Source of the DNA: Peptococcaceae bacterium | GTDB taxonomy: Bacteria; Bacillota; Peptococcia; Peptococcales; Peptococcaceae | Direction: 5' to 3' | NCBI GenBank assembly: GCA_017399005.1 | Contig: JAFQEO010000035.1 | Location: 124,001 to 188,000, forward strand | DNA: 64,000 nt | Part shown: positions 4,014-50,941 of the stretch, piece after piece | How positions within the stretch are numbered: the stretch's first letter is position 1 | How the letters are laid out: every line of letters begins with the position of its first letter | Program-made: the position numbers and the translations under genes | Notes under the pieces: model-generated | What the model was told of the DNA's origin: nothing | Database searches by the model: none | What the model saw: only the letters and a program-made list of their open reading frames with translations

Positions 4014-4199
4014 AGAGAGCGTGTATTATGCAGGAACGAATTCTGTTTACGATGGACATTTGCTTGATTGTTTCATGCGTGAAAGACGAAGTCTTGCAAA
4101 GCGAAACAATCAAGCATAAGCATAGCTGTATCCATATCTCTTAGAGGGAATCAATGTCCAGCATTAAACAGAAGAGTGGGGTGCATAAACACGCTCTCT
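4014..4199 (+). repeat. fold-back intergenic element, subfamily I, copy A
   Basis: This 186-bp imperfect palindrome lies between two convergent genes. From outside in, AGAGAGCGTGT pairs with ACACGCTCTCT, TTCTGTTTA and GGACATT pair with AATGTCC and TAAACAGAA, CTTGATTGTTTC pairs with GAAACAATCAAG, and AGAC-GAA-GTCT forms the tip. The inner 140 bp match copies B (9886) and C (14401); the outer arms do not. It carries the GAATTC-GATGGAC box and the GCGTG...CAAAGC core. No open frame, transposase or tRNA-like feature is inside. The neighbouring + gene has its own terminator, so termination is not its only possible role. Confidence 0.85.
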
Positions 4200-4210
4200 C
4201 AGGTAAAGGT

Positions 4211-4678
4211 TTACTCATTTGGTGCGTAGTCAAATCCGGCGAACATGCCGAATTTGATTACCGGCTGGGTGGCATAGCGGGCACTAAAATCCTTTTTAGC
4301 CTGTGCGATGGCTTCTTTTTCGCTCATGCCTTCTGCAAGATGCTGTGTTTTCTGTTTTTCTTTAAAGGCTTTTGCAAAGTCCTCGCATACATAGACCTTT
4401 TTGTAAGCTTTATAAAGTTTCTGCTGCACTAAAAAACGGTAGCTGCCCGACTGTTCTTTATATTCAATCTCGCCGCGATGCACGCTGATTTCTTTATATT
4501 CCCGGTCATCCTCGCTGAAGCTTGCCCACAGTTTTTCCGCATCGGCAATTGCATCCTCTTTGTTCTGATAATACACGATAGTTGTTTCATGGTCGGTCAT
4601 ATCCCGGTTTTCCACAGTGTAAAGCTGCACACCTGCATAATTATCACCTAACATTGCTAATACGCTTTCAAAATCCAT
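4211..4678 (-). CDS. hypothetical cytoplasmic protein
   Basis: The 155-residue product has no signal peptide or membrane segment. It is rich in Lys, Glu, Tyr and Ala, with long predicted helices in the second half (FAKAFKEKQKTQ..., MSEKEAIAQAKKDF) and a start (MDFESVLAMLGDNYAG) that looks globular. AGGAGG eight bases before ATG supports the start. It is a single leftward gene between the hairpin element and the rightward rarA, so it is probably expressed alone. I do not recognise the family. Confidence 0.8.
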   Translation of the reverse strand: MDFESVLAMLGDNYAGVQLYTVENRDMTDHETTIVYYQNKEDAIADAEKLWASFSEDDREYKEISVHRGEIEYKEQSGSYRFLVQQKLYKAYKKVYVCEDFAKAFKEKQKTQHLAEGMSEKEAIAQAKKDFSARYATQPVIKFGMFAGFDYAPNE

Positions 4679-4839
4679 ATATGATTCCTCCTTATAAATT
4701 ATACAATCGGGACGCCTCGGCTGCCCGTAACATTCTGTTATGTTTTATTCTTACCCTCAATCCTCGTTACTCTAACATAAAAATGCCGTATAGACGGATG
4801 GATACGGAACATGATAAAATAACAGACAGGTGATGCAAA

Positions 4840-6168
4840 ATGACATTGTTTGATAATAATCTGTTTGATACAAATAAAAAAGAGACCTTGCAGAAAAATG
4901 CGCCGCTGGCACAGAGAATGCGTCCGCAGACATTAGATGAAATTTTAGGGCAGGAGCATATTATCGGGCCGGGCAAATTACTGCGCCGTGCCATTGAAAC
5001 CGATAAGCTTTCGTCGCTGATTTTCTGGGGCACACCGGGCTGCGGAAAAACCACAATTGCCTCGGTAATAGCCAATGTAACCAATAAATTTTATGCCAGC
5101 CTCAATGCGGTAACCGACGGCGTGGCTGATTTACGCAAAGTAACGGCTGCGGCCGAGGAAAATCTGGCCATGTACGGACGGCAGACCATCCTCTTTATCG
5201 ATGAAATTCACCGCTTTAACAAAGGGCAGCAGGATGCGCTGCTTCCATCTGTAGAAAAAGGCCTGATTGTGTTAATCGGTGCTACTACACAGAATCCGTA
5301 TTTCAGCCTCAATCCGGCGCTGTTATCACGCTCCATGGTGTTTGAGCTGAAACCTCTGCAGAAATCGGATATCGAAACAATTCTGCGTCGAAGCTGTGAA
5401 GATGTAAAGCGGGGTCTCGGTACCTATCAGCTCAATGTAACACAGGAGGCTATCGACCATTTATGTAACTGCAGCCGGGGCGATGCCCGCATTGCGTTAA
5501 ACGGTCTGGAACTGGCAGTTCTGTCAAGCCGGCCAAATGAAGAGGGCATTCGTGTTATCGATTTATCGGTAGTAGAAGAATCGGTTCAACGCCCGGCAAT
5601 TGTATACGATAATACCGGTGATGACCATTATGACATTATTTCGGCATTTATTAAAAGTATGCGAGGCTCTGACCCCGATGCAGCGGTTTATTATCTGGCT
5701 CGTATGCTGGATGCCGGTGAAGACCCGATGTTTATCGCACGTCGTATTGTTATCCATGCCTGTGAAGATGTAGGTCTTGCCGATCCGCATGCGCTTCAGG
5801 TGGCACAGAGTGCCGCTTCTGCGGTGCAGTTTATCGGTATGCCGGAAGGGCGCATTATTTTAGCTGAGGCTGCAATTTATGTGGCAAAGGCTCCAAAAAG
5901 CAACAGCGTTATCTGTGCCATTGATTCTGCACTGTCGCAGGTGCGGAGCGGCAAAAACGGGCCAGTGCCCGACCATTTAAAAGACAGTCACTATGCCGGA
6001 GCAAAACAGCTGGGGCATGGTGTCGGGTATCAGTATCCGCATGATGACCCGAGTGGCTGGGTTCCGCAGCAATATCTGCCGAATAATTTAGCCGATGCGG
6101 TGTTTTACAGAGAAAATCCGCGTGATTATAAAGGTTTTACCAAACCGGAAAAGGGGAGAGGTAGATGA
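4840..6168 (+). CDS. rarA: replication-associated recombination protein A (AAA+ ATPase)
   Basis: The 442-residue product is full length for RarA/MgsA, a clamp-loader-like AAA+ ATPase that acts at stalled replication forks. Walker A is GTPGCGKT at residues 64-71 and Walker B LFIDEIHRF at 118-126. The conserved opening APLAQRMRPQTLDEILGQEH precedes them, and the C-terminal half has the family's tetramerisation and fork-binding region (DHLKDSHYAGAKQLGHG). AGGTGATG precedes ATG. The stop overlaps the mnmA start by four bases (ATGA), so the two are translationally coupled. Confidence 0.95.
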   Translation: MTLFDNNLFDTNKKETLQKNAPLAQRMRPQTLDEILGQEHIIGPGKLLRRAIETDKLSSLIFWGTPGCGKTTIASVIANVTNKFYASLNAVTDGVADLRKVTAAAEENLAMYGRQTILFIDEIHRFNKGQQDALLPSVEKGLIVLIGATTQNPYFSLNPALLSRSMVFELKPLQKSDIETILRRSCEDVKRGLGTYQLNVTQEAIDHLCNCSRGDARIALNGLELAVLSSRPNEEGIRVIDLSVVEESVQRPAIVYDNTGDDHYDIISAFIKSMRGSDPDAAVYYLARMLDAGEDPMFIARRIVIHACEDVGLADPHALQVAQSAASAVQFIGMPEGRIILAEAAIYVAKAPKSNSVICAIDSALSQVRSGKNGPVPDHLKDSHYAGAKQLGHGVGYQYPHDDPSGWVPQQYLPNNLADAVFYRENPRDYKGFTKPEKGRGR

Positions 6169-7238
6169 GTCAGAAAAAACCGGTGGTCGCTCTCGGCATG
6201 AGCGGTGGGGTAGACAGTTCTGTGGCAGTTCATTTGCTGCAGCAGGCTGGATATGAAGTGCACGGTATCCATATGCTGATGATTCCTGAGAAATTTCAGC
6301 CAAATTCCGGTGCTGTAAGCGATGCAAAAACTGTTGCAGAACAGTTTCGAATTAAATTCACTGTACTAGATGTAAGAGATAAATTTGAAGAATGTATTAT
6401 ACAACAGTTTGGAAAAGAATATTCTGATGGTAGAACACCAAATCCTTGTATAAATTGCAATCAACAGCTTAAATTCGGACTTTTTGCTGATGCTGCAAAA
6501 AATATTGGTGCCGATTATATTAGTACAGGTCATTATGTTCGAACTGAAATTTTTGAAAATGGCCATAAACTGTTTCATAAAGCAGTGGATGCCAAAAAAG
6601 ATCAGAGCTATTTTCTGTCACTGGTATCGCCAGATGTGTTAGACCGCTGCATTTTTCCACTGGGCGAACTGACAAAAGATCAGGTGCGTGAAATTGCAAA
6701 AGAGATTGGCCTGCACGTGGCGGAAAAAGGAGACAGTCAGGAAATCTGTTTCATTCCGGATAACGATTACAAAGCATTCTTAAAACAGATTCTGCCGCCC
6801 AAAGCATTCCGGAAAGGCAAAGTATATCATGCTGATGGACGATTATTAGGTAATCATGATGGGATTCAGAATTACACCATCGGCCAGCGAAAAGGGCTGG
6901 GGATTGCTCTGGGAAAACCGGCTTATGTGGTTCAGCTGGATGCAAAGAAAAACACCGTGATTCTGGGGGATAATGAGCATCTGCTTCATAATCAGCTTAC
7001 AGCGAGCCGGAATAATTATTTTGTGGAGCTTCCTCTGGAAACACCTGTGCAGGTCGATGCAAAAATCCGTTATCGGGCGCAGGCAGCACCGGCAGAATTA
7101 ATCTGCCATGCCGATGGCACATCCACGGTAACATTTAACGATGCACAGCGGGCTATTACACCGGGGCAGTGTGTGGCTTACTACAAAGGCGATGCGTTAA
7201 TCGGCGGCGGGATGATTGAAACCGCACAGACCGTGTAA
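6165..7238 (+). CDS. mnmA: tRNA-specific 2-thiouridylase
   Basis: The 357-residue product is full length for MnmA, which thiolates U34 of tRNA-Lys, Glu and Gln using ATP and a sulfur relay. The PP-loop SGGVDSS is at residues 13-19. NPCINCN gives the catalytic Cys98, and GDSQEICFIP holds the partner Cys195. The NYTIGQRKGLGI segment and C-terminal beta barrel are present. It overlaps rarA by four bases. Bases about 6310-6575 are visibly poorer in GC than the rest of the gene and use ATA, AGA and CTA codons that are otherwise scarce here, although the protein is intact. Confidence 0.96.
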   Translation: MSQKKPVVALGMSGGVDSSVAVHLLQQAGYEVHGIHMLMIPEKFQPNSGAVSDAKTVAEQFRIKFTVLDVRDKFEECIIQQFGKEYSDGRTPNPCINCNQQLKFGLFADAAKNIGADYISTGHYVRTEIFENGHKLFHKAVDAKKDQSYFLSLVSPDVLDRCIFPLGELTKDQVREIAKEIGLHVAEKGDSQEICFIPDNDYKAFLKQILPPKAFRKGKVYHADGRLLGNHDGIQNYTIGQRKGLGIALGKPAYVVQLDAKKNTVILGDNEHLLHNQLTASRNNYFVELPLETPVQVDAKIRYRAQAAPAELICHADGTSTVTFNDAQRAITPGQCVAYYKGDALIGGGMIETAQTV

Positions 7239-7267
7239 CTTATAAATTAGAAAGGGGATAATAGTAG

Positions 7268-7939
7268 ATGCGAGGTAATCTGGCAGCAAAAGCTGTTATG
7301 AAATATCTGGCAGGGCTGATACTTGTCGGTTTTCTTCTGTTTGTTCCGGCAGGAACGATTTTTTACTGGAATGGCTGGCTGTTTATCGGGCTTTTGTTTA
7401 TCCCTATGTTCTTTCTTGGGCTTGTACTGTTATGGAAAGCACCTGATTTACTGGAGAAACGTTTGAATACAAAAGAAAAAGAGAACGACCAGAAACAGGT
7501 GGTGGGTTTATCGGCGCTGATGTTTCTGGCCGGTTTTATACTGGCCGCTCTGGATTATCGATTTCAGTGGACACAGCTGCCCGGTTGGATTGTATTAATT
7601 GCCTCTGTAGTATTGCTGTTTTCTTACGGCATGTATGCCGAAGTAATGCGGGAGAATGCATATCTGTCCCGCACCGTGGAGATTCAGGAAAATCAGAAAG
7701 TTATCGACACAGGGCTTTACGGAATTGTGCGCCATCCCATGTACAGCAGCACCATTCTTTTATTTTTATCTATTCCGCTGGTTTTAGGCTCCGGCCTTGC
7801 CTTTCTGCTGTTTTTGTGTTATCCGGCATTGATTATTAAACGGATAAAAAATGAGGAAGAACTCCTGGAAGCAGGACTGACAGGATATCGCGAATACAAA
7901 CAAAAGGTAAAATATCGCCTGATACCGTTTGTGTGGTAA
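7268..7939 (+). CDS. isoprenylcysteine/phospholipid methyltransferase-family membrane protein
   Basis: The 223-residue membrane protein has about five hydrophobic segments. Its C-terminal half carries the signature of the ICMT/PEMT methyltransferase family: GLYGIVRHPMYSS at about residues 150-162, then an EEELLEAGLTGYREYKQKVKYRLIP tail. In this family these parts bind S-adenosylmethionine at the membrane face. The substrate in bacteria is usually unknown. The RBS GAAAGGGG lies ahead of ATG. It follows mnmA by 29 bp, possibly by read-through, and converges with the CDP-alcohol transferase. Confidence 0.85.
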   Translation: MRGNLAAKAVMKYLAGLILVGFLLFVPAGTIFYWNGWLFIGLLFIPMFFLGLVLLWKAPDLLEKRLNTKEKENDQKQVVGLSALMFLAGFILAALDYRFQWTQLPGWIVLIASVVLLFSYGMYAEVMRENAYLSRTVEIQENQKVIDTGLYGIVRHPMYSSTILLFLSIPLVLGSGLAFLLFLCYPALIIKRIKNEEELLEAGLTGYREYKQKVKYRLIPFVW

Positions 7940-7972
7940 AGCTATTTTCAGTTTGGGGTATTTAAAACTGGA

Positions 7973-8479
7973 CTACTTGCTTTCAAATCCTGTTGCAACA
8001 TAAAACGCTTCCTGAATTGCTGCGAATGTTGCTATGGAACATACTGCAATGGAACTGTATTTCAATTCAACAAAAGACAAGGTCAGGGGGAGAAGAAACA
8101 ATAACAATCCTGTAATCTTGTTCATTATAGTATGCAGGGATATTAACTGCTTTTTAGAAGCATATCCCCATATGATAGTACCGATTTTGATAATTGCGAT
8201 TACAACACCCCATATCCATAACCATTGAGGAAGATTAATTGCTGGCAATATTTTAATCAGAGACACTGTTACGAAAGCAAAGTCGGCTGCAGTATCGATT
8301 TTAGCCCCCGATTCACTAGTGCTGTTTGTCTTTCTTGCGATAGTACCATCTATCATGTCACTAAAACCGCAGAGGATATATACAATATAAAACTCTACTG
8401 AAAACGCAGGAAAGAACAATAACAAAACACTGCCCAGAATACGACAGCCTGTGACTATATTTGCAATATGTTTTATCAT
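7973..8479 (-). CDS. CDP-alcohol phosphatidyltransferase family protein
   Basis: The 168-residue membrane protein has the complete family motif D-x2-DG-x2-AR-x8-G-x3-D-x3-D at residues 41-66 (DMIDGTIAR...G...D...D). These enzymes transfer a phosphatidyl group from a CDP-lipid to an alcohol such as glycerol-3-phosphate, serine or inositol; the acceptor cannot be told here. I chose the ATG at 8479 because TAGGAGA lies seven bases before it. An upstream ATG at 8521 would add 14 polar residues without a good ribosome site. It stands alone, convergent with the methyltransferase gene. Confidence 0.88.
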   Translation of the reverse strand: MIKHIANIVTGCRILGSVLLLFFPAFSVEFYIVYILCGFSDMIDGTIARKTNSTSESGAKIDTAADFAFVTVSLIKILPAINLPQWLWIWGVVIAIIKIGTIIWGYASKKQLISLHTIMNKITGLLLFLLPLTLSFVELKYSSIAVCSIATFAAIQEAFYVATGFESK

Positions 8480-8598
8480 CGGTTCTCCTAAAATTCTGAA
8501 TTTTTTTGATCTGTTTGACAAATTCCAGTTTGTCTCACTCTTTTTATATTATAGCACACTTTTTTAACTGTATCGTTTTGAAAAGATTGAACAATACG

Positions 8599-8632
8599 AA
8601 AAAAGGCAGCAACGACTGGGTTGCTGCCTTTT
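8599..8632 (-). terminator. terminator for the small-protein operon
   Basis: AAAGGCAGCAAC and GTTGCTGCCTTT form a perfect 12-bp stem with a six-base loop. Read leftward it ends in TTTTTTCG. It lies 68 bp after the stop of the last small leftward gene. Confidence 0.88.
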
Positions 8633-8699
8633 GTGTTTGTGTTCAGTTATTTTTTTGTCATCACCGGCATACAGTGATAGAAACAGGCTGAGTTATTGC

Positions 8700-8933
8700 T
8701 TAGCAGCACCAGTTGTTGTTGCCACCGCCAAAACCGTTAATCAGATACAGGAAGATTACGAAAATGATAATCCACCAGATCCAGCTCCATGTGCCGTTGT
8801 TTGTGCCGTTCCAGCCCCATGCGCTATTGCAGCCGCAGGAGTTGCAGGAATTGCAGTTATTATAATTTGTGTACCCGCAGTTGTTGTCACATTCATTATA
8901 GCCGCAGCCACAGGAAGATACTTGTTCGTTCAT
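8700..8933 (-). CDS. Cys/Asn-rich one-helix membrane protein (77 aa)
   Basis: The start is the ATG at 8933, six bases after AAAGGAGG; a longer frame has no such site. The first 40 residues are Cys, Asn, Gly and Tyr (SSCGCGYNECDNNCGY..., then NSCNSCGCN). About residues 49-66 form a Trp-rich membrane helix (WSWIWWIIIFVIFLYLI), followed by a Gly/Asn tail ending WCC. It is the last gene of a four-gene leftward operon of tiny proteins. Cys/Asn-rich one-helix proteins are often spore-coat or envelope parts in spore formers; that is inference. Confidence 0.8.
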   Translation of the reverse strand: MNEQVSSCGCGYNECDNNCGYTNYNNCNSCNSCGCNSAWGWNGTNNGTWSWIWWIIIFVIFLYLINGFGGGNNNWCC

Positions 8934-8947
8934 AGGAAAAACCTCCT

Positions 8948-9052
8948 TTAGATGATAAAAAGCCATTTGATGAGCCACAGGATTAAAATCAGCATCAGCA
9001 TGGTTTCAAAGTAAAACCAGCTGGTGGCTCTAGCGGTGTGATAATACTCCAC
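8948..9052 (-). CDS. 34-aa single-helix membrane peptide
   Basis: This very short frame starts with GTG at 9052, nine bases after AAAGGA, and ends TAA at 8950-8948. The product is a dozen polar residues (MEYYHTARATSW) and one membrane helix with FETMLMLILILWLIKWLF. That helix closely matches the helix of the 67-aa protein two genes upstream (FFETLIMLIIIIWLLRWLF), which strongly supports it as a real gene rather than chance. It lies between the 74-aa and 77-aa genes, with the downstream RBS just after its stop. Function is unknown. Confidence 0.72.
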   Translation of the reverse strand: MEYYHTARATSWFYFETMLMLILILWLIKWLFII

Positions 9053-9084
9053 CGGAATCAATCCTTTCGTTTTTCCTTCCGGCA

Positions 9085-9309
9085 TCAGAAGCCGGGAGGT
9101 CGCCGCCGGTAAAGATTGTGCGGCGGGCGGGGAATCTGATTTTGCAGATGTCGGGAACTGGAGGCGAATTTCTCAATAAAGGGATAAAACTCCTCCAGCG
9201 CATCCAGCAGATGATCCACACTGTCTGTGAATCCCCGAATACTGGTTGTGGTACATTTCAGATGGTCAACCGTACGCATCAGCGGTTCAGAAGCTCGTTT
9301 TTCGCTCAT
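9085..9309 (-). CDS. 74-aa soluble hypothetical protein
   Basis: The ATG overlaps the stop of the preceding gene as TAATG, so it is translationally coupled. The product is predicted helical (RTVDHLKCTTTSIRGFTDSVDHLLDALEEFYPFIEKFA), then a basic Pro/Arg tail. There is no signal or membrane segment. Position and coupling argue that it is expressed with the Cys-rich membrane peptides. No family recognised. Confidence 0.68.
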   Translation of the reverse strand: MSEKRASEPLMRTVDHLKCTTTSIRGFTDSVDHLLDALEEFYPFIEKFASSSRHLQNQIPRPPHNLYRRRPPGF

Positions 9310-9512
9310 TAGCAGCCGTTATTGCATCCAAATACCGTATTTTGGCAGCCGAACATACCACAGCTAAACAGCCATCTTAATAACCAGATAATAATAATCA
9401 GCATAATCAGAGTTTCAAAAAAACTGCCGTTACATCCACCGCCAAAATTGCAATGTTCTTCGCAGCCATTCTGGCATTGATTGCCCCAGCCGAAGCCTAA
9501 GTTTTCAGACAT
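9309..9512 (-). CDS. Cys-rich one-helix membrane protein (67 aa)
   Basis: First gene of the leftward small-protein operon, with AAAGGAGG nine bases before ATG. Residues 1-30 are Gly/Asn/Cys-rich (NQCQNGCEEHCNFGGGCNG), residues 32-50 are a membrane helix with the FFETLIMLIIIIWLLRWLF motif, and the tail has more Cys (CGMFGCQ, FGCNNGC). Ten Cys in 67 residues suggest metal binding or disulfide cross-linking (inference). It is divergent from the gene at 9657 across a 144-bp promoter region. Confidence 0.8.
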   Translation of the reverse strand: MSENLGFGWGNQCQNGCEEHCNFGGGCNGSFFETLIMLIIIIWLLRWLFSCGMFGCQNTVFGCNNGC

Positions 9513-9656
9513 AGTCAGTTCCTCCTTTAGTATGTTTCAGTGTACGTTTTGCGTACCTGTTATCTGGAGTGTATTTCGCACTCACAGTACTATCTTATGT
9601 AAAGATCAGAAAAGCGTGACTGTTTTCTAAAATTTCAGGAAAGGAGGGATACCATT

Positions 9657-9869
9657 ATGGAGCAGATGCCATCGATGCCGGGCAGTATGGAGGAATTAAA
9701 AACACTGGTGCAGAATTTTGAGATGTTTCTTCCGGAGGAACAGCGCCGGGTTATTCACAAGACCATTGCGCAGATGGAAAGCACCGGCGGGATTCAGAGC
9801 GAGGAACAGGGCCGCGAGATTCTGGCCGGTTTAATGCAGTCTCTGGGATTGCCGGGAATGCAGAAATAA
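9657..9869 (+). CDS. 70-aa hypothetical protein
   Basis: AAAGGAGGG nine bases before ATG gives a strong start. The product begins MEQMPSMPGSMEEL, then an amphipathic helical stretch (TLVQNFEMFLPEEQRRVIHKTIAQME) and a Met/Gly-rich end (LAGLMQSLGLPGMQK). There is no membrane segment. It precedes spoIIM but is separated from it by hairpin element B. No family recognised. Confidence 0.75.
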   Translation: MEQMPSMPGSMEELKTLVQNFEMFLPEEQRRVIHKTIAQMESTGGIQSEEQGREILAGLMQSLGLPGMQK

Positions 9870-9885
9870 ATAAAACGTATTCAGT

Positions 9886-10085
9886 AAAGAATCAGGCAGG
9901 ACAGATGTGTTCCCTTTTCTGTTTAATGCTGGACATTGATTACCTCAAAGCAAAATGGATATTGCTATGCTTATGCTTGATTGTTTCGCTTTGTAAGACT
10001 TCGTCTTCCACGCCCGAAACAATCTTCGCAAATGTCCATCGTAAAGCAGAATTCGGTCCACACATTCTGTGCTGCCTGATTCTTT
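9886..10085 (-). repeat. fold-back intergenic element, subfamily I, copy B (inverted)
   Basis: This 200-bp palindrome lies between the 70-aa gene and spoIIM, in the opposite orientation to copies A and C. The outermost arms (AAAGAATCAGGCAG at the left, CTGCCTGATTCTTT at the right) pair perfectly and are unique to this locus. Inside are the shared boxes: the GGACATT/AATGTCC pair, the GATTGTTTC/GAAACAATC stem, the AGAC-GAA-GTCT tip, GAATTC-GATGGAC and GCGTG...CAAAGC. One frame stays open through it, but that frame is only the palindrome read as codons. Confidence 0.86.
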
Positions 10086-10141
10086 GCAGACTTTGTTGTC
10101 AAATTTTGAACGATTTTCAGCCTGAAAGGGGGACAAACTGG

Positions 10142-10675
10142 ATGAAAAAACTGCTTCTGTTTCAGAGTGTTCTGATGCTGAGCGGCATTATTTTCGGCAT
10201 GATTGCCTATCTGGTGTTATCGGACGAGCAGGTTTTGACTTTGCATCAGTATTTGACAGCGCAGATGCAGAATCTGACCTCGATTTCACAGCTTGAGGCC
10301 GGGAGCCGCATTTTAAAAAACAACGGGCTGGAGTTATTGCGTGTTTATCTGACCGGTATCTGCCTTCTGGGTCTGCCGATTCTGATTTTGCTGTTGTTTT
10401 TAAAAGGCTTCTCGTTTGGATTTGTGAGCTGTTTTCTGATTTCCCGCTCGCCGCTTTTAATCCTCACCCGTTTTCTGTATCTGCCGGTGTTTCTTCTGGC
10501 TGTGGCTATGGGGATCCGCTTTTCGTGGATTATGGTGCAGAACCGGATGAACAGCCCCGCTCGTCAGCTGGTGGAATATACCTTTCTGTTTGGACTGCTT
10601 CTGCTTCTCACGATTATCTGCAGTTATGCGGACGGGTTAAGCTGCAGTGCATATCTTAACGGTCTGGTTGGATAA
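10142..10675 (+). CDS. spoIIM: SpoIIM-like stage II sporulation membrane protein
   Basis: The 177-residue product has about five membrane segments. Its centre (LTGICLLGLPILILLLFLKGFSFGFVSCFLI) matches the core of SpoIIM, the scaffold of the DMP complex that degrades septal peptidoglycan during engulfment. The context agrees: spoIIM, xerD, deoB and a nucleoside phosphorylase follow each other as in Bacillus. The ATG at 10142 follows AAAGGGGG; an upstream frame extension runs through hairpin element B and is not credible. The sequence is diverged, so the name rests on topology, the central motif and gene order. Confidence 0.78.
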   Translation: MKKLLLFQSVLMLSGIIFGMIAYLVLSDEQVLTLHQYLTAQMQNLTSISQLEAGSRILKNNGLELLRVYLTGICLLGLPILILLLFLKGFSFGFVSCFLISRSPLLILTRFLYLPVFLLAVAMGIRFSWIMVQNRMNSPARQLVEYTFLFGLLLLLTIICSYADGLSCSAYLNGLVG

Positions 10676-10803
10676 GGAGTATTTACTGGACTTTTGATGA
10701 TAAAACCTTTACACTGATATTAAAACAGGACTTTTTTGAAACACAGCAGAAAATAGTAATAGAACAGAACAAAACAGAACGATAAGAGACAGGATGTGAC
10801 AGA

Positions 10804-11709
10804 ATGTTAGATCAGGCCATTGATGATTATATTGTGTATCTGACGGTGGAAAAGGGGTCATCCCGCAACACCATTGAGGCATACAGCAACGATGTGCGAA
10901 AACTGGCGCAGTATCTGAGCGATGCGGATATCAAACGCTGGAGTCAGGTGGATTCGTATCATATACGGGGGTATCTTGCCTTTATGCAGCAGGAGGATGT
11001 AACCAACACCACCCGGGCGCGAAATGTGGCGGCCATGAAGAGTTTCTTCCGGTTTCTCTACATAGAGAAATATACCGACAGCAACCTGGCCGAGCTTCTG
11101 GACGGGCCTCGCAAAGAGAAAGTGCTGCCAAAATATCTCACCATCGAGGAAGTGGAGCGTCTGATGGCTGCTCCCGATGTAACCACTCCCAACGGATGCC
11201 GGGACAAAGCCATGCTGGAGCTGTTATATGCTTCCGGATTGCGTGTTACCGAGCTGATTACGCTACGGCTCAGCGATATCAGTTTTGAGATGGCCTATGT
11301 GCGCTGCTTTGGCAAAGGCGCCAAGGAACGGGTGATTCCGCTGGGCAAATATGCCCTGCAGGCTCTGGAGCGATATATTGATGTATGCCGCCCAAAAGTG
11401 ATGAACAACTGGCAGACGGATATTCTGTTTCTCAACAAAAGTGGCAACGGCCTGACACGGCAGGGATTCTGGAAAATTATCAAGAAATACGGCCAGGAGG
11501 CAGGCATTACTGCCGATTTAACGCCCCATGTGCTGCGTCATTCCTTTGCCACACACCTGTTAAGCAATGGTGCTGATTTGCGTGCTATCCAGGAAATGCT
11601 GGGCCATGCCGATATTGCCACCACGCAGATTTACACCCATCTTCTGGGAGAACAGATGCTGGAAGTGTACAAGGAGGCCCATCCGAGAGCAAAGAAGAAA
11701 CAGTCGTAA
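10804..11709 (+). CDS. xerD: site-specific tyrosine recombinase XerD
   Basis: The 301-residue tyrosine recombinase has all catalytic residues: Arg147 (SGLRVTEL), Lys171 (GKGAKER), His242 and Arg245 (PHVLRHSFATHLL), His268 (LGHAD) and Tyr277 (IYTHL). The N-terminal SAM-like DNA-binding domain occupies residues 1-100. With XerC (30757) it resolves chromosome dimers at dif. Position after spoIIM and before deoB is the usual xerD (ripX) location in Bacillota, which is why I name this one XerD. Confidence 0.93.
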   Translation: MLDQAIDDYIVYLTVEKGSSRNTIEAYSNDVRKLAQYLSDADIKRWSQVDSYHIRGYLAFMQQEDVTNTTRARNVAAMKSFFRFLYIEKYTDSNLAELLDGPRKEKVLPKYLTIEEVERLMAAPDVTTPNGCRDKAMLELLYASGLRVTELITLRLSDISFEMAYVRCFGKGAKERVIPLGKYALQALERYIDVCRPKVMNNWQTDILFLNKSGNGLTRQGFWKIIKKYGQEAGITADLTPHVLRHSFATHLLSNGADLRAIQEMLGHADIATTQIYTHLLGEQMLEVYKEAHPRAKKKQS

Positions 11710-11723
11710 GCAATAGTTGCAAA

Positions 11724-11739
11724 TGTTTCACGTGAAACA
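11724..11739. promoter_or_regulatory. parS: parS site (ParB/Spo0J binding site)
   Basis: A second perfect TGTTTCACGTGAAACA, 15 bp after the xerD stop and before deoB. The flanks extend the palindrome (AAATGTTTCACG / CGTGAAACATTT). Same family as the sites at 2868 and 55364. Confidence 0.93.
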
Positions 11740-11826
11740 TTTGTTCTTTCAAACGAACAAACGAACGAATTCATAAATCGATGTAAGAGCAGATATTGTA
11801 TTATAGTCAAAACGGGGTGAAGCCTT

Positions 11827-13014
11827 ATGAAAAAAGCGATTTTAATTGTATTGGACAGTGCCGGAATTGGCGCTCTGCCCGATGCGGCACAATATGGAGA
11901 CTGCGGCTGCAATACCTTTCAGCGCATTGCCGATGCCATGCCTGAGCTGGAACTGCCTTATCTGAACGGTATGGGATTACATAAGCTGGTGCCGCAGTTT
12001 AAAAACCGGCAGAAAGCAGAAATTGCGCTCCCCTGCATAGCGGGGCGGATGGCCGAGCTGTCAAAAGGGAAAGATACCATCACCGGGCACTGGGAACTGA
12101 CCGGCATTATTACTGAGGAGCCGTCACCTACCTTTCCGGATGGATTTCCCGATGAGCTTCTGCGGCAGCTGTATGATGCCTGCGGTGTGGAGTTTCTTGG
12201 CAATGAGGTGGCATCGGGCACCGAAATTATTGCACGGCTTGGTGCAGAACATGTAAAAACAGGCAAACCGATTTTATATACATCAGCAGACAGCGTTCTG
12301 CAGATTGCAGCTCACGAGGAAGTGATTCCGCTGGAACGTTTGTATCAGATTTGTGAAGCAGCACGTGAACTGACCCGCACCGGCCCTTATAAAGTAGGCC
12401 GGGTGATTGCCCGCCCGTTTATCGGAGAGGAAGGAAATTATCAGCGTACATCGAACCGGCATGACTATTCGCTGATGGTGCCGGAGGACAACCTGCTTGC
12501 GGATTTATTAAAACAGCAGTATCAGGTGATGTCGGTAGGCAAAATTCAGGATATCTTTGCCAATGTTTCCTTCACCAGAGCGGTGCACACAAAGAGCAAT
12601 GCTGATGGCATGGCGCAGACTATGGCCTTTTATGAGGATTTGCAACAGGGGCTCTTGTTTGTGAATCTGGTGGATTTTGATATGAAATACGGGCACCGGA
12701 GAGATGCCTCTGGATACGGACAGGCACTTGCCGATTTTGATGTACAGCTTGGCCGTCTGCTGGATAAACTGGATGATGAAACCATTCTGATTCTGACGGC
12801 AGACCACGGGTGTGACCCGGGCTTTACCGGAACCGATCACACCCGGGAATATGTACCGCTTCTGATGTGCGGCAAACCGCTGAAACAGAAGACCGTGTAC
12901 GAACAAACAGCAACCTATCAGAGCTTTGCAGACCTGGCAGCCACACTGGCACAGTATTTTGCAATTTCCTATTCCGGTGCCGGAACCAGCTTTGCCTGTG
13001 ATGTTTTTGAATAA
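11827..13014 (+). CDS. deoB: phosphopentomutase
   Basis: The 395-residue product is full length for DeoB, which interconverts ribose-1-phosphate or deoxyribose-1-phosphate with the 5-phosphate using two Mn ions. Metal-site motifs are LDSAGIGALPDA at the start (Asp10), ADHGCDPGFTGTDHTREY near the end, and the catalytic KDTITGHWE with the phosphorylated Thr expected at residue 86. It works with the pyrimidine phosphorylase that follows by feeding the freed sugar phosphate to central metabolism. The RBS is GGGGTGA before ATG. Confidence 0.96.
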   Translation: MKKAILIVLDSAGIGALPDAAQYGDCGCNTFQRIADAMPELELPYLNGMGLHKLVPQFKNRQKAEIALPCIAGRMAELSKGKDTITGHWELTGIITEEPSPTFPDGFPDELLRQLYDACGVEFLGNEVASGTEIIARLGAEHVKTGKPILYTSADSVLQIAAHEEVIPLERLYQICEAARELTRTGPYKVGRVIARPFIGEEGNYQRTSNRHDYSLMVPEDNLLADLLKQQYQVMSVGKIQDIFANVSFTRAVHTKSNADGMAQTMAFYEDLQQGLLFVNLVDFDMKYGHRRDASGYGQALADFDVQLGRLLDKLDDETILILTADHGCDPGFTGTDHTREYVPLLMCGKPLKQKTVYEQTATYQSFADLAATLAQYFAISYSGAGTSFACDVFE

Positions 13015-13074
13015 TGTATTGAGTTATGCTTCGTGTTATGCTTTTGAGTAATGTTTTTGAGAGGGGTGTTCTGC

Positions 13075-14373
13075 ATGAGAGCATGTGACATCATTGCCCG
13101 CAAACGGGATGGATTGGAACACAGCCGGGAAGAACTGGAGTTTTTTATCAGCGGCTATGTAAAAGGCGACATCGGTGACGAACAGATGGCTGCCTGGCTG
13201 ATGGCGGTATATTTTCAAGGGCTGAACCGTGAGGAAACACAGATTCTCACCGATTTCATGATGCATTCCGGTGATATCATTGATTTGAGCGGTATTCAGG
13301 GAATTGTGGTAGACAAACACAGTACCGGCGGTGTGGGGGATAAAACCACGCTTGTTCTGGCGCCTCTGGTTGCTTCGGCCGGTGTGCCGGTTGCCAAATT
13401 ATCGGGTCGAGGACTTGGTTTTACCGGCGGCACCATTGATAAGCTGGAAGCCATTCCGGGCTTTCAGACCAGCATTCCATCGGAACAGTTTCTGAATCAG
13501 GTAAATGAAATCGGGCTGGCTGTGGCCGGGCAGACGGCAAGTCTGGTACTGGCGGATAAAAAAATGTATGCGCTGCGGGATATTACAGCAACCGTTGAAA
13601 GCATTCCGCTGATTTCCAGCAGCATTATGAGCAAAAAACTGGCATCTGGTGCAAATCGCATTGTGCTGGATGTGAAATTCGGCTCCGGCGCCTTTATGCA
13701 GAACAAAGAAGATGCCGAGCTTTTAGCCCGCACCATGGTGAATATCGGCAACGGGCTGGGGCGTAAAACCGTTGCGGTGCTCTCCTCTATGGAAGAACCT
13801 CTGGGGTATGCCGTGGGTAACGCGCTGGAAGTGCAGGAGGCCATCGATACCCTGCAGGGGCATGGCCCGGCCGATTTCACTGAATTATGCCTGACACTGG
13901 CCGGCCAGATGATTTATCTGGGCGATAAGGCAGCCTCGGCAGAAGACGGATATAAACTGGCTGAGGAGCTTTTGAAAAGTGGCGCTGCCATGAAAAAATT
14001 TGAACAGATGGTGACAGCACAGGGCGGCAGCCTGAAACTGGCCATGGCACAGGCGAAATATCAGTATGAAGTGCTGGCCAGCCAATCCGGCGTGGTGCAG
14101 AGCATTACCGCCCGGGATATCGGCCATGCCAGTATGCTGCTGGGGGCAGGGCGTGAAACCAAAGCATCGGCCATTGACCTGTCGGCAGGGATAGTATTAA
14201 AGAAAAAAGTGGGCGATACCGTTCAGCAGGGCGAACCGCTAGCCGTTTTATATTACAATGACGCTTATGCCCATCGGGTGCAGGATGCCGCAGACGAATT
14301 ACGGCAGGCATACACCATTGGTCATGCCGACGCACACAAAGAACCGTTAATCTGGAAGATTATAAGCGAGTAA
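13075..14373 (+). CDS. pdp: pyrimidine-nucleoside phosphorylase
   Basis: From the ATG at 13075 the product is 432 residues, the usual length of Pdp/thymidine phosphorylase; GAGGGGTG lies six bases before it, and an upstream ATG at 13051 would add only eight residues. The phosphate-binding signature KHSTGGVGDKT is at residues 81-91, and SGRGLGFTGGTIDKLE follows. The enzyme splits uridine, thymidine or deoxyuridine into base and sugar-1-phosphate, which DeoB converts next. The 60-bp gap suggests co-transcription with deoB. In Bacillus the matching slot holds a purine phosphorylase. Confidence 0.94.
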   Translation: MRACDIIARKRDGLEHSREELEFFISGYVKGDIGDEQMAAWLMAVYFQGLNREETQILTDFMMHSGDIIDLSGIQGIVVDKHSTGGVGDKTTLVLAPLVASAGVPVAKLSGRGLGFTGGTIDKLEAIPGFQTSIPSEQFLNQVNEIGLAVAGQTASLVLADKKMYALRDITATVESIPLISSSIMSKKLASGANRIVLDVKFGSGAFMQNKEDAELLARTMVNIGNGLGRKTVAVLSSMEEPLGYAVGNALEVQEAIDTLQGHGPADFTELCLTLAGQMIYLGDKAASAEDGYKLAEELLKSGAAMKKFEQMVTAQGGSLKLAMAQAKYQYEVLASQSGVVQSITARDIGHASMLLGAGRETKASAIDLSAGIVLKKKVGDTVQQGEPLAVLYYNDAYAHRVQDAADELRQAYTIGHADAHKEPLIWKIISE

Positions 14374-14400
14374 CCCTCTCTTTGCATAGAATATATTGCG

Positions 14401-14586
14401 GCATCAGCGCATGATGTTGGAACGAATTCTTCTTTACGATGGACATTTGCGAAGATTGTTTCCGGCGTGGAAGACAAAGTCTTACAAAGCGAAACAATCG
14501 AGCATGACCTTTTGCACAATCCATACTTATTTGGGAATGACAATGTCCAGCATTAAAAAGAAGAGTGATAACATCTGGCCTGATGC
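14401..14586 (+). repeat. fold-back intergenic element, subfamily I, copy C
   Basis: This 186-bp palindrome begins 27 bp after the pyrimidine phosphorylase. Outer arms GCATCA/TGATGC and GATGTT/AACATC are unique to this locus. Inside are the shared boxes GGACATT/AATGTCC, GATTGTTTC/GAAACAATC and AAGAC-AAA-GTCTT, and the GAATTC-GATGGAC and GCGTG...CAAAGC blocks. Same orientation as copy A. Confidence 0.86.
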
Positions 14587-14654
14587 CGATTTTATATATC
14601 AGGCACACTTTGCTCCCCTTCTGCATAAAGTAAAGCAGGAAGGGGAGATTTTTT

Positions 14655-15260
14655 ATGAGCGATGAAAGCAAAGTAAGCAGGGACGATATTCTGGATCAGC
14701 TTCAGGCTGGTCATCGGGCAAGAATTGACGGGCAGATGCTGCAGAATCTGAACAAAGACGCTGTGCAGTTTCATGAAGTGGTGCCAAACCGCAATGCAGC
14801 ACAGCCTGCCGCAGAACAACCGGAACAGACCATGCCGGAAAGCTATCTGAATTATGCGGCACAGCTTCTGGAACAGATGCGCGGCGTATACGCAAGTTCC
14901 TGGGAAAACTGCGGCTGCGGAAGCACATCGTCGTGGCACGGCGGGCATAATCATTTCTATGACCCGTGCAGCGGAGCCGATAATCCGCCGCAAAGCAACT
15001 GCCCGGTATATGACTGTGAAAACACGTGCTGTTCGGATAACCATCACGGACATCACCCGAAACCTCCAAAACCGCCATACCATTCAGAACCAGACTGCGG
15101 CTGCGGAACCACAACCTATTATAACGACTGCGCCTACAAACTGCAGAAAGTAAGCGACCAGCTGAACCGCGTAGAAAACCTGGTAAAAGAAAACTATGCC
15201 TTAAATCAGCAGCTTGCCAGTTATATCATCGAGTACCTGAATAAGCTGATTACCAGCTGA
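14655..15260 (+). CDS. Cys/His-rich protein with C-terminal coiled coil
   Basis: The 201-residue product has a helical start (residues 1-80), then a Cys/His/Pro-rich middle (NCGCGSTSSWHGGHNH, NTCCSDNHHGHHPKPP, DCGCGTT) and a leucine-spaced helical tail (LQKVSDQLNRVENLVKENYALNQQLASYIIEYL) that looks like a coiled coil. There is no signal peptide. The middle could bind metal or cross-link through disulfides. Such a make-up is common in spore-coat proteins of spore formers; this is inference, helped by nearby spoIIM. GGAAGGGGAG precedes ATG. A perfect terminator follows. Confidence 0.82.
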   Translation: MSDESKVSRDDILDQLQAGHRARIDGQMLQNLNKDAVQFHEVVPNRNAAQPAAEQPEQTMPESYLNYAAQLLEQMRGVYASSWENCGCGSTSSWHGGHNHFYDPCSGADNPPQSNCPVYDCENTCCSDNHHGHHPKPPKPPYHSEPDCGCGTTTYYNDCAYKLQKVSDQLNRVENLVKENYALNQQLASYIIEYLNKLITS

Positions 15261-42320: not shown

Positions 42321-42490
42321 AAAAACACGCAGGGTATCCTTTCCCCTGTCCCTCCATATCTGGGCACTACCGGAAAGCTATCCAGCGTTGACGGATTTCT
42401 GCACTTCGTGCAAATCCATCACGCTTCTGGACAGCTTTCATCCGTGTCCATCTATAGTCGGAATTCAGGGAAAGATACGCTGCGTGTTTC
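42321..42490 (-). repeat. fold-back intergenic element, subfamily II, copy D
   Basis: This palindrome of about 170 bp lies between convergent genes. The outer arms AAACACGCAGGGTATC and GATACGCTGCGTGTTT pair with one base difference and belong only to this locus. In minus-strand orientation it has GAATTC-CGACTATA-GATGGAC, then a 12-bp stem (GAAAGCTGTCCA with TGGATAGCTTTC), GCGTG...CAACGC, GGATTT/AAATCC and GCAC-GAA-GTGC at the tip. Weaker pairing may extend to about 42300-42512. The inner part matches copy E. Confidence 0.85.
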
Positions 42491-49324: not shown

Positions 49325-49353
49325 AGTATAACACACGAACAGATGTTTTGCAA
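49325..49353 (-). promoter_or_regulatory. promoter copy 1 with SOS-like box
   Basis: On the minus strand TTGCAA, a 17-bp spacer, then TATACT. The spacer includes CGAACAGATGTTTT (49336-49349), close to the Gram-positive LexA box CGAAC-N4-GTTCG. The same 30 bp recur at 49977-50006, which drives the toxin. Downstream is the NdpA-like gene with a leader of about 155 bases. Confidence 0.6.
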
Positions 49354-49471
49354 GTACTTTTTCCAAATCGTCTCTGTGTGGAGACACAGCCTGTAAATAA
49401 GTTATCCACAGGCAGATTTCCTCGCGCGCGTTCTTCCACTTCTGCAATAACAACGACGACGACTTGTTTTA

Positions 49472-49977: not shown

Positions 49978-50006
49978 AGTATAACACACGAACAGATGTT
50001 TTGCAA
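49978..50006 (-). promoter_or_regulatory. toxin promoter, copy 2, with SOS-like box
   Basis: TTGCAA, a 17-bp spacer, then TATACT on the minus strand, with CGAACAGATGTTTT at 49989-50002 inside the spacer. The same sequence is copied at 49325. LexA control of the toxin is inferred from the box. Confidence 0.65.
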
Positions 50007-50025
50007 GAAAATTCTGTAAAATCAT

Positions 50026-50742: not shown

Positions 50743-50941
50743 GGCAGCGATGATTGTATAATAACTCCTGTCCAATTACCATTTGCCTCTCCCTCCACAC
50801 CTGGACTCTACCTCAGAATTGTTCAGCGTTGCCGGATTAACATCCGTCACGCTCCTGAACAATTCTGACCGCGTCCATCTGTAGTCGGAATTCGTGCAAA
50901 TGTACATTGGACATCTGTACCGTTATACATTCTTCGCTGCC
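50743..50941 (-). repeat. fold-back intergenic element, subfamily II, copy E
   Basis: This 199-bp palindrome lies between threonine aldolase and the LUD gene. Outer arms over 45 bp (GGCAGCGATGATTGTATAA at the left; TTATACATTCTTCGCTGCC at the right) pair with few differences and are unique to this locus. In minus orientation it holds GAATTC-CGACTACA-GATGGAC, the perfect stem CAGAATTGTTCA/TGAACAATTCTG, GCGTG...CAACGC and the tip GGAT-GTTA-ATCC. It pairs with copy D by sequence but its stem differs by compensating changes. Confidence 0.87.

Follow-up and report, generated by a model that had tools for sequence, protein, structure and literature searches.

The analysed DNA (a 64-kb stretch, hereafter the window) carries three intergenic hairpins, whose coordinates are collected in Table 1 together with those of two related hairpins. 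Copy 3 stands between a 440-aa gene (13051-14373, + strand) and an ORF on the same strand (14655-15260). Copy 1 borders a - strand gene (4211-4678), and on that strand the hairpin is followed by CTGTTTTTTATTAA, i.e. copy 1 appears terminator-like for this gene. Two further kinds of repeat were seen in the window: the start regions of three neighbouring small putative lipoprotein genes (98-192, 1045-1139 and 1607-1701) are nearly the same, two of them being 96% identical, and differ from one another over the remainder of the genes; and a 43-bp direct repeat (49325-49367 and 49978-50020) is 86% identical over a distance of 653 bp.

Table 1. Hairpins of the window, their tip domains and outer arms.
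Feature	Position	Strand	Remarks
Copy 1, whole hairpin	4014-4199	+	outer arms AGAGAGCGTGTATTATGCA / TGCATAAACACGCTCTCT
Copy 1, conserved tip domain	4064-4115	+	tip model R1, 68.4 bits
Copy 2, whole hairpin	9886-10085	-	
Copy 2, conserved tip domain	9975-10026	-	tip model, 71.4 bits
Copy 3, whole hairpin	about 14391-14599	+	outer arms GGCATCAGCGCATGATGTT / AACATCTGGCCTGATGCC, then GATTTTAT
Copy 3, conserved tip domain	14452-14503	+	tip model, 69.1 bits
Related hairpin with variant tip CGTGACGGAT..AATCCGGCAACG	50743-50941	-	arms GGCAGCGATGATTG..CATTCTTCGCTGCC; weaker tip match 50813-50866
Weaker relative of the variant-tip hairpin	42323-42489	-	tip 42372-42438, 21.3 bits; arm ends by eye

All three copies are long imperfect nested palindromes and each folds as a single long hairpin, copy 1 reaching -76.9 kcal/mol as RNA (z -9.30) and copies 2 and 3 giving z scores of -8.81 and -5.84 (DNA parameters), with none of 200 shuffles as stable as the native fold in any of the three cases. 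These results bear out the first-pass annotation, which had placed three near-complete imperfect palindromes at these positions, two in plus and one in minus orientation, and had taken them to be free of genes (the overlapping ORFs are mechanical only). The boxes that it listed, GGACATT/AATGTCC and GATTGTTTC/GAAACAATC, are present in all three copies; the apical AGAC-GAA-GTCT holds for copies 1 and 2 and is replaced by AGAC-AAA-GTCT in copy 3, whose arms also run slightly beyond the limits of 14401-14586 given at first. The close inner match that had been noted is real as regards the common core, in which copy 1 is 88% identical to copy 2 (query 20-163) and 81% identical to copy 3 (query 12-165), and does not extend to the outermost arms, which vary in sequence from copy to copy and are self-pairing in each.

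Rfam (release 15) gave no match at gathering thresholds in the whole window, and at E<=1 the region had one match only, chance-level and unrelated. BLAST with copy 1 recovered further copies in its own genome; of the seven other genomes of the genus, three had copies as well. The genus comprises ruminant-gut Peptococcaceae MAGs and relatives. A scan for the tip pattern over one genome per species (84,980 species) returned 35 DNA stretches, which came from Peptococcaceae MAGs, nearly all named for the ruminant gut, and from the assembly CALXUG (titled uncultured Clostridia), apparently the same as our genome G006 and hence of the same genus. The covariance model of the tip (R1, built from 40 copies) found matches in all eight genus genomes, and 13 genomes from other genera of the order gave none; copies per genus genome ranged from at least 4 to at least 63, these being lower bounds with 150 candidates scored per genome. 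The elements are dispersed nested palindromes of about 140-250 bp, up to 96-98% alike within one genome, and the part shared across the larger family is the hairpin tip, the outer arms being mostly locus-specific. The initial reading of an unnamed intergenic fold-back family is therefore supported, the covariance-model search having shown the nested pairing to recur in many copies in each genus genome searched, and neither a match to a known MITE or RNA family nor an absence from related genomes was encountered among what was searchable. The three copies are members of a previously uncatalogued, genus-restricted family, with named repeats outside Rfam compared by description only.

Several other repeats were observed alongside the family. 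The variant-tip hairpins of Table 1 (CGTGAYGGAT..) are related to loci L056 and L060, and are possibly the other subfamily of the first-pass annotation. A nearly invariant 21-bp palindrome, CCCGACCAGAAARGCGTCGGG, occurs at about 50 places in six of the eight genomes, in many of them a short distance from a tip match in either arm (positions compared by eye); it lies inside many hairpins, its loci include L005, L008, L009, L038, L057, L093 and L103, and in L057 it is within what looks like an rRNA leader. Locus L126 (G006:C46:645-1178) consists of three tandem hairpin copies about 193 bp apart, just upstream of an apparent tmRNA gene, and belongs to a subfamily with many copies in G006 that are 92-98% identical. 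Head-to-head inverted doublets of the tip, with a REPIN-like look, were seen at L174, L194, L204, L205, L206 and L217.

The tip has the consensus CGTG-R-MAGAC-GNA-GTCTK-R-C-NAAG atop an 8-bp helix (CGTGGAAGACGAAGTCTTACAAAG as the single strand for folding). From the base, this helix gives way to a bulge of two bases and then to a short helix whose closing pair is C-G. Above it come the internal loop GT/NAA, one G-C pair, a mismatch (A.G or G.A), a run of five pairs and, at the apex, mostly a GNA triloop. Pairing was found in 96.3% of 680 cells, and changes on both sides were counted in 99 cells as against 32.9 +/- 4.1 in shuffles. The two sides of the non-Watson-Crick position switch in concert (G.A in 26 cases, A.G in 12 and A.A in 2), and this concerted exchange suggests that the folded strand is recognised.

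Gene context was assessed for the 87 copies flanked on each side by a called gene, with a simple ORF rule for gene calling: 34 lie in convergent, 51 in tandem and 2 in divergent gaps. A circular chromosome has as many convergent gaps as divergent ones, so 34 against 2 is far from chance (lower binomial tail about 1e-8, calculated by hand, with copies at orthologous sites not fully independent), and the elements are shown to be almost confined to the 3' ends of genes. Within the tandem contexts there is no strand preference, the tip pointing with the genes in 25 and against them in 26. Right ends are T-rich in 27 of 58 copies and A-rich in 8, left ends A-rich in 28 of 58 and T-rich in 6, and an A-rich left end is combined with a T-rich right end in 16 of 27 convergent cases; about half of all ends have neither tract. 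In the direction of transcription, a T-tract comes after the hairpin at 20 of the 42 ends serving a left + gene and 26 of the 43 serving a right - gene. With such A-rich and T-rich ends the outer stems often look like bidirectional terminators.

Comparison between species was based on seven orthologous pairs, obtained by locus-to-locus BLAST and aligned (an eighth, L014/L185, is outside the counts). In three of the seven the tip is reversed relative to the flanking genes: L001/L027 (157 of 179 positions identical), L010/L040 (= L191; 192 of 215) and L011/L033 (136 of 156), the identities being those in tip orientation with the outer arms included. Alignment in this orientation over the entire element, arms included, means that it has been inverted in place, and copy 1 of the window (L001) is among the inverted elements. 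The outer arms move with the inversion and are therefore at least long-lived parts of the element; the idea of a fixed core dropped into pre-existing terminators is only partly supported, as the arms travel with the inverting element. A general wholesale exchange of inner parts was rejected, since inner cores are on average more alike between orthologous (0.88) than between non-orthologous copies (0.80). Paired positions that changed between orthologs comprise 18 double Watson-Crick replacements and 38 single-sided changes (8 G.T, 7 A.C and 23 other); as the single-sided changes are the more numerous, correction of one arm by the other is incomplete and not immediate.

Many sites are stably inherited, and at others there has been gain or loss. 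Copy 2 is present in its own genome, and the tip model found nothing in the syntenic gap of G001, G004 or G007; in G004 and G001 the site without the element carries plain hairpins of unrelated sequence. Copy 3 is present in its own genome and in G004, with no tip model match in the syntenic gap of G001, G005 or G006. In a single-gene tree the own genome and G004 are neighbours (split support 79), and the pattern of presence fits a gain on the branch of these two genomes, with loss also possible. Where the element is missing, the orthologous gaps have diverged too far for alignment, and no clean empty site or target duplication is definable.

Template switching between inverted-repeat arms reportedly homogenises the arms and inverts spacers (PMC8604942), and is also reported to create and maintain hairpins through multi-base compensatory changes accompanied by loop inversions (PMC8794818); the inversions in both studies concern short spacers, as against elements of 150-250 bp here. 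Both signatures, arm matching and inversion, occur in the family. We favour, at about even confidence, a family of DNA-level hairpins that is spread by a hairpin-recognising enzyme, acts as a two-way terminator at gene ends and is matched and flipped by template switching. On this reading the elements would act mainly at the DNA level, with the apical hairpin as the signal that is recognised once replication has exposed a single strand and this has folded. They would spread as non-autonomous repeats through the putative enzyme, the palindrome at gene ends may serve as, or be tolerated as, a two-way transcription terminator, to judge from its sequence, and template switching between the arms during replication would keep them matched and turn the element around. 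Against arm correction as the sole force, conserved internal loops persist, and the folded form must therefore be under some selection as well; the mismatches kept in the tip need a cause of their own, the simplest candidate being recognition by a putative protein.

The same copies might instead be selected purely as bidirectional terminators, the core spreading only by recombination between copies and with no dedicated mobile system. This would suit the terminator-like ends and the unrelated plain hairpins at the copy 2 site in other species, and the inner part may swap while the outer arms stay, the best case being L006/L032 (inner 0.82, outer 0.78). A terminator needs no conserved tip, yet the tip is the part common to the genus, and T- or A-tracts are missing at about half of the ends; we regard this account as possible, if unlikely. 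Distinctly unlikely, in our estimate, is a mobile DNA system of a new type in which hairpins recognised by the folded tip enter other hairpins, terminators for example, or take the place of their inner part. The products would be nested palindromes whose outer stems are local, and the enzyme would be something other than a Y1 transposase or a reverse transcriptase.

A structured regulatory RNA would require that the hairpin be transcribed and its tip bound as RNA by a protein, for example in stabilising or processing mRNA 3' ends, and such a role would account for the strong covariation, for the conserved asymmetric tip with its G.A mismatch and GNA triloop, and for the location at gene ends. 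Maintenance of pairing in the RNA of a single strand would be expected to leave more G.T than A.C. Over 70 copies we counted 4269 Watson-Crick pairs, 76 G.T and 86 A.C, and on the gene-sense strand in tandem contexts 57 G.T against 61 A.C. Strong covariation with no wobble bias argues against upkeep as a one-strand RNA, and an RNA of fixed strand is disfavoured because neither strand has a G.U excess and sense and antisense placements are balanced; a terminator working on either strand is compatible with both the pair counts and this balance. The inverted orthologous copies and the lack of an Rfam match also stand against a regulatory RNA, which we consider quite improbable.

We give little credence to the view that the family is a classical MITE, related to an IS with a DDE transposase but itself non-autonomous. 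Size, dispersal, intergenic location and the near-identity of copies within one genome are as expected of such an element, but conserved terminal inverted repeats are missing, the outer ends mostly differing per locus, and no target duplication is definable. Nor was a transposase-bearing relative with the same ends noticed: at five loci the ORFs lying between adjacent copies were read through, and none was taken for a transposase. Searches for a mobilising enzyme found none, Y1 and reverse transcriptase being missing from several carriers. Reverse transcriptase (PF00078) is present in only three of the eight genus genomes and was rejected as a partner, as it does not track the family. The Y1 transposase domain (PF01797) does not track it either, being absent from seven of the eight carrier genomes (G004, G006 and five others, some of them incomplete) and represented by two matches in the own genome, the only carrier with any. 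Mobilisation by a RAYT (Y1) transposase, as in a REP/REPIN system, is accordingly hard to credit at all, in spite of the short hairpin with its 5' CGTG tag, the inverted doublets and a gene-end distribution like that reported for REPs (PMC3733652), given these seven carriers and a conserved unit that forms the apex of a hairpin of 140-250 bp.

Three points go beyond the first-pass annotation: the tip is what the copies share, the outer arms for the most part are local and look like terminators, and inversion in place occurs. With long palindromes that have orthologs in several species, the family is a natural collection through which the evolution of arm matching and flipping becomes accessible. 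It lets one ask whether covariation in a hairpin always means selection on RNA, since strong covariation occurs here with no G.U signature; it gives a concrete target to search for, the factor reading the CGTG..AAG tip; and it suggests terminators as possible sites of repeat spread.

Among known systems, REP, BIME and REPIN sequences, CGTC-tagged REPs included, are high-copy intergenic hairpins with a short tag and are often arranged as inverted doublets; REPs are 20-40 bp palindromes with a GTAG or CGTC tag unpaired at one end, lie between convergent and tandem genes, mostly downstream of genes, and in the CGTC group have no known transposase (PMC3733652). The present family is like REPs in consisting of dispersed hairpins at gene ends, in convergent and tandem gaps (34 and 51, against 2 divergent). 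However, its CGTG motif is internal and partly paired within a nested hairpin of 140-250 bp, which places it outside the REP definition by size and tag, its outer arms mostly differ from locus to locus, and inversion in place affects whole elements. YPAL/RU-2 of Yersinia, likewise a dispersed hairpin at gene ends, is about 168 bp long, has internal inverted repeats without conserved terminal ones, and inserts at or next to dyad symmetry with reported target duplications of 3-26 bp (PMC2229807). The likeness in size, in internal inverted repeats and in the lack of conserved terminal ones is by description only, and Yersinia belongs to another genus and phylum; dyad symmetry is found here in the terminator-like palindromes of the outer stems and in the hairpins at the copy 2 site without the element (G004 and G001), with no clean empty site. 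The MITEs ERIC, Correia/NEMIS and RUP are dispersed elements of 100-200 bp whose transcripts are predicted to form long stem-loops, and bacterial MITEs have conserved terminal inverted repeats, usually with TA ends and target duplications (PMC2229807). Compared by description only, the two groups share dispersed long hairpins, whereas the ends in the present family are mostly not conserved, contrary to the defining terminal repeats of MITEs. Integron attC sites, in which structure is kept while sequence varies and a folded single strand is recognised strand-specifically, serve as a working analogy, with the difference that our family is dispersed rather than in cassette arrays and is conserved at the tip, not the base. 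On these comparisons the family would best be filed as a variant of the dispersed bacterial palindromic repeats, of the REP/YPAL-like kind.
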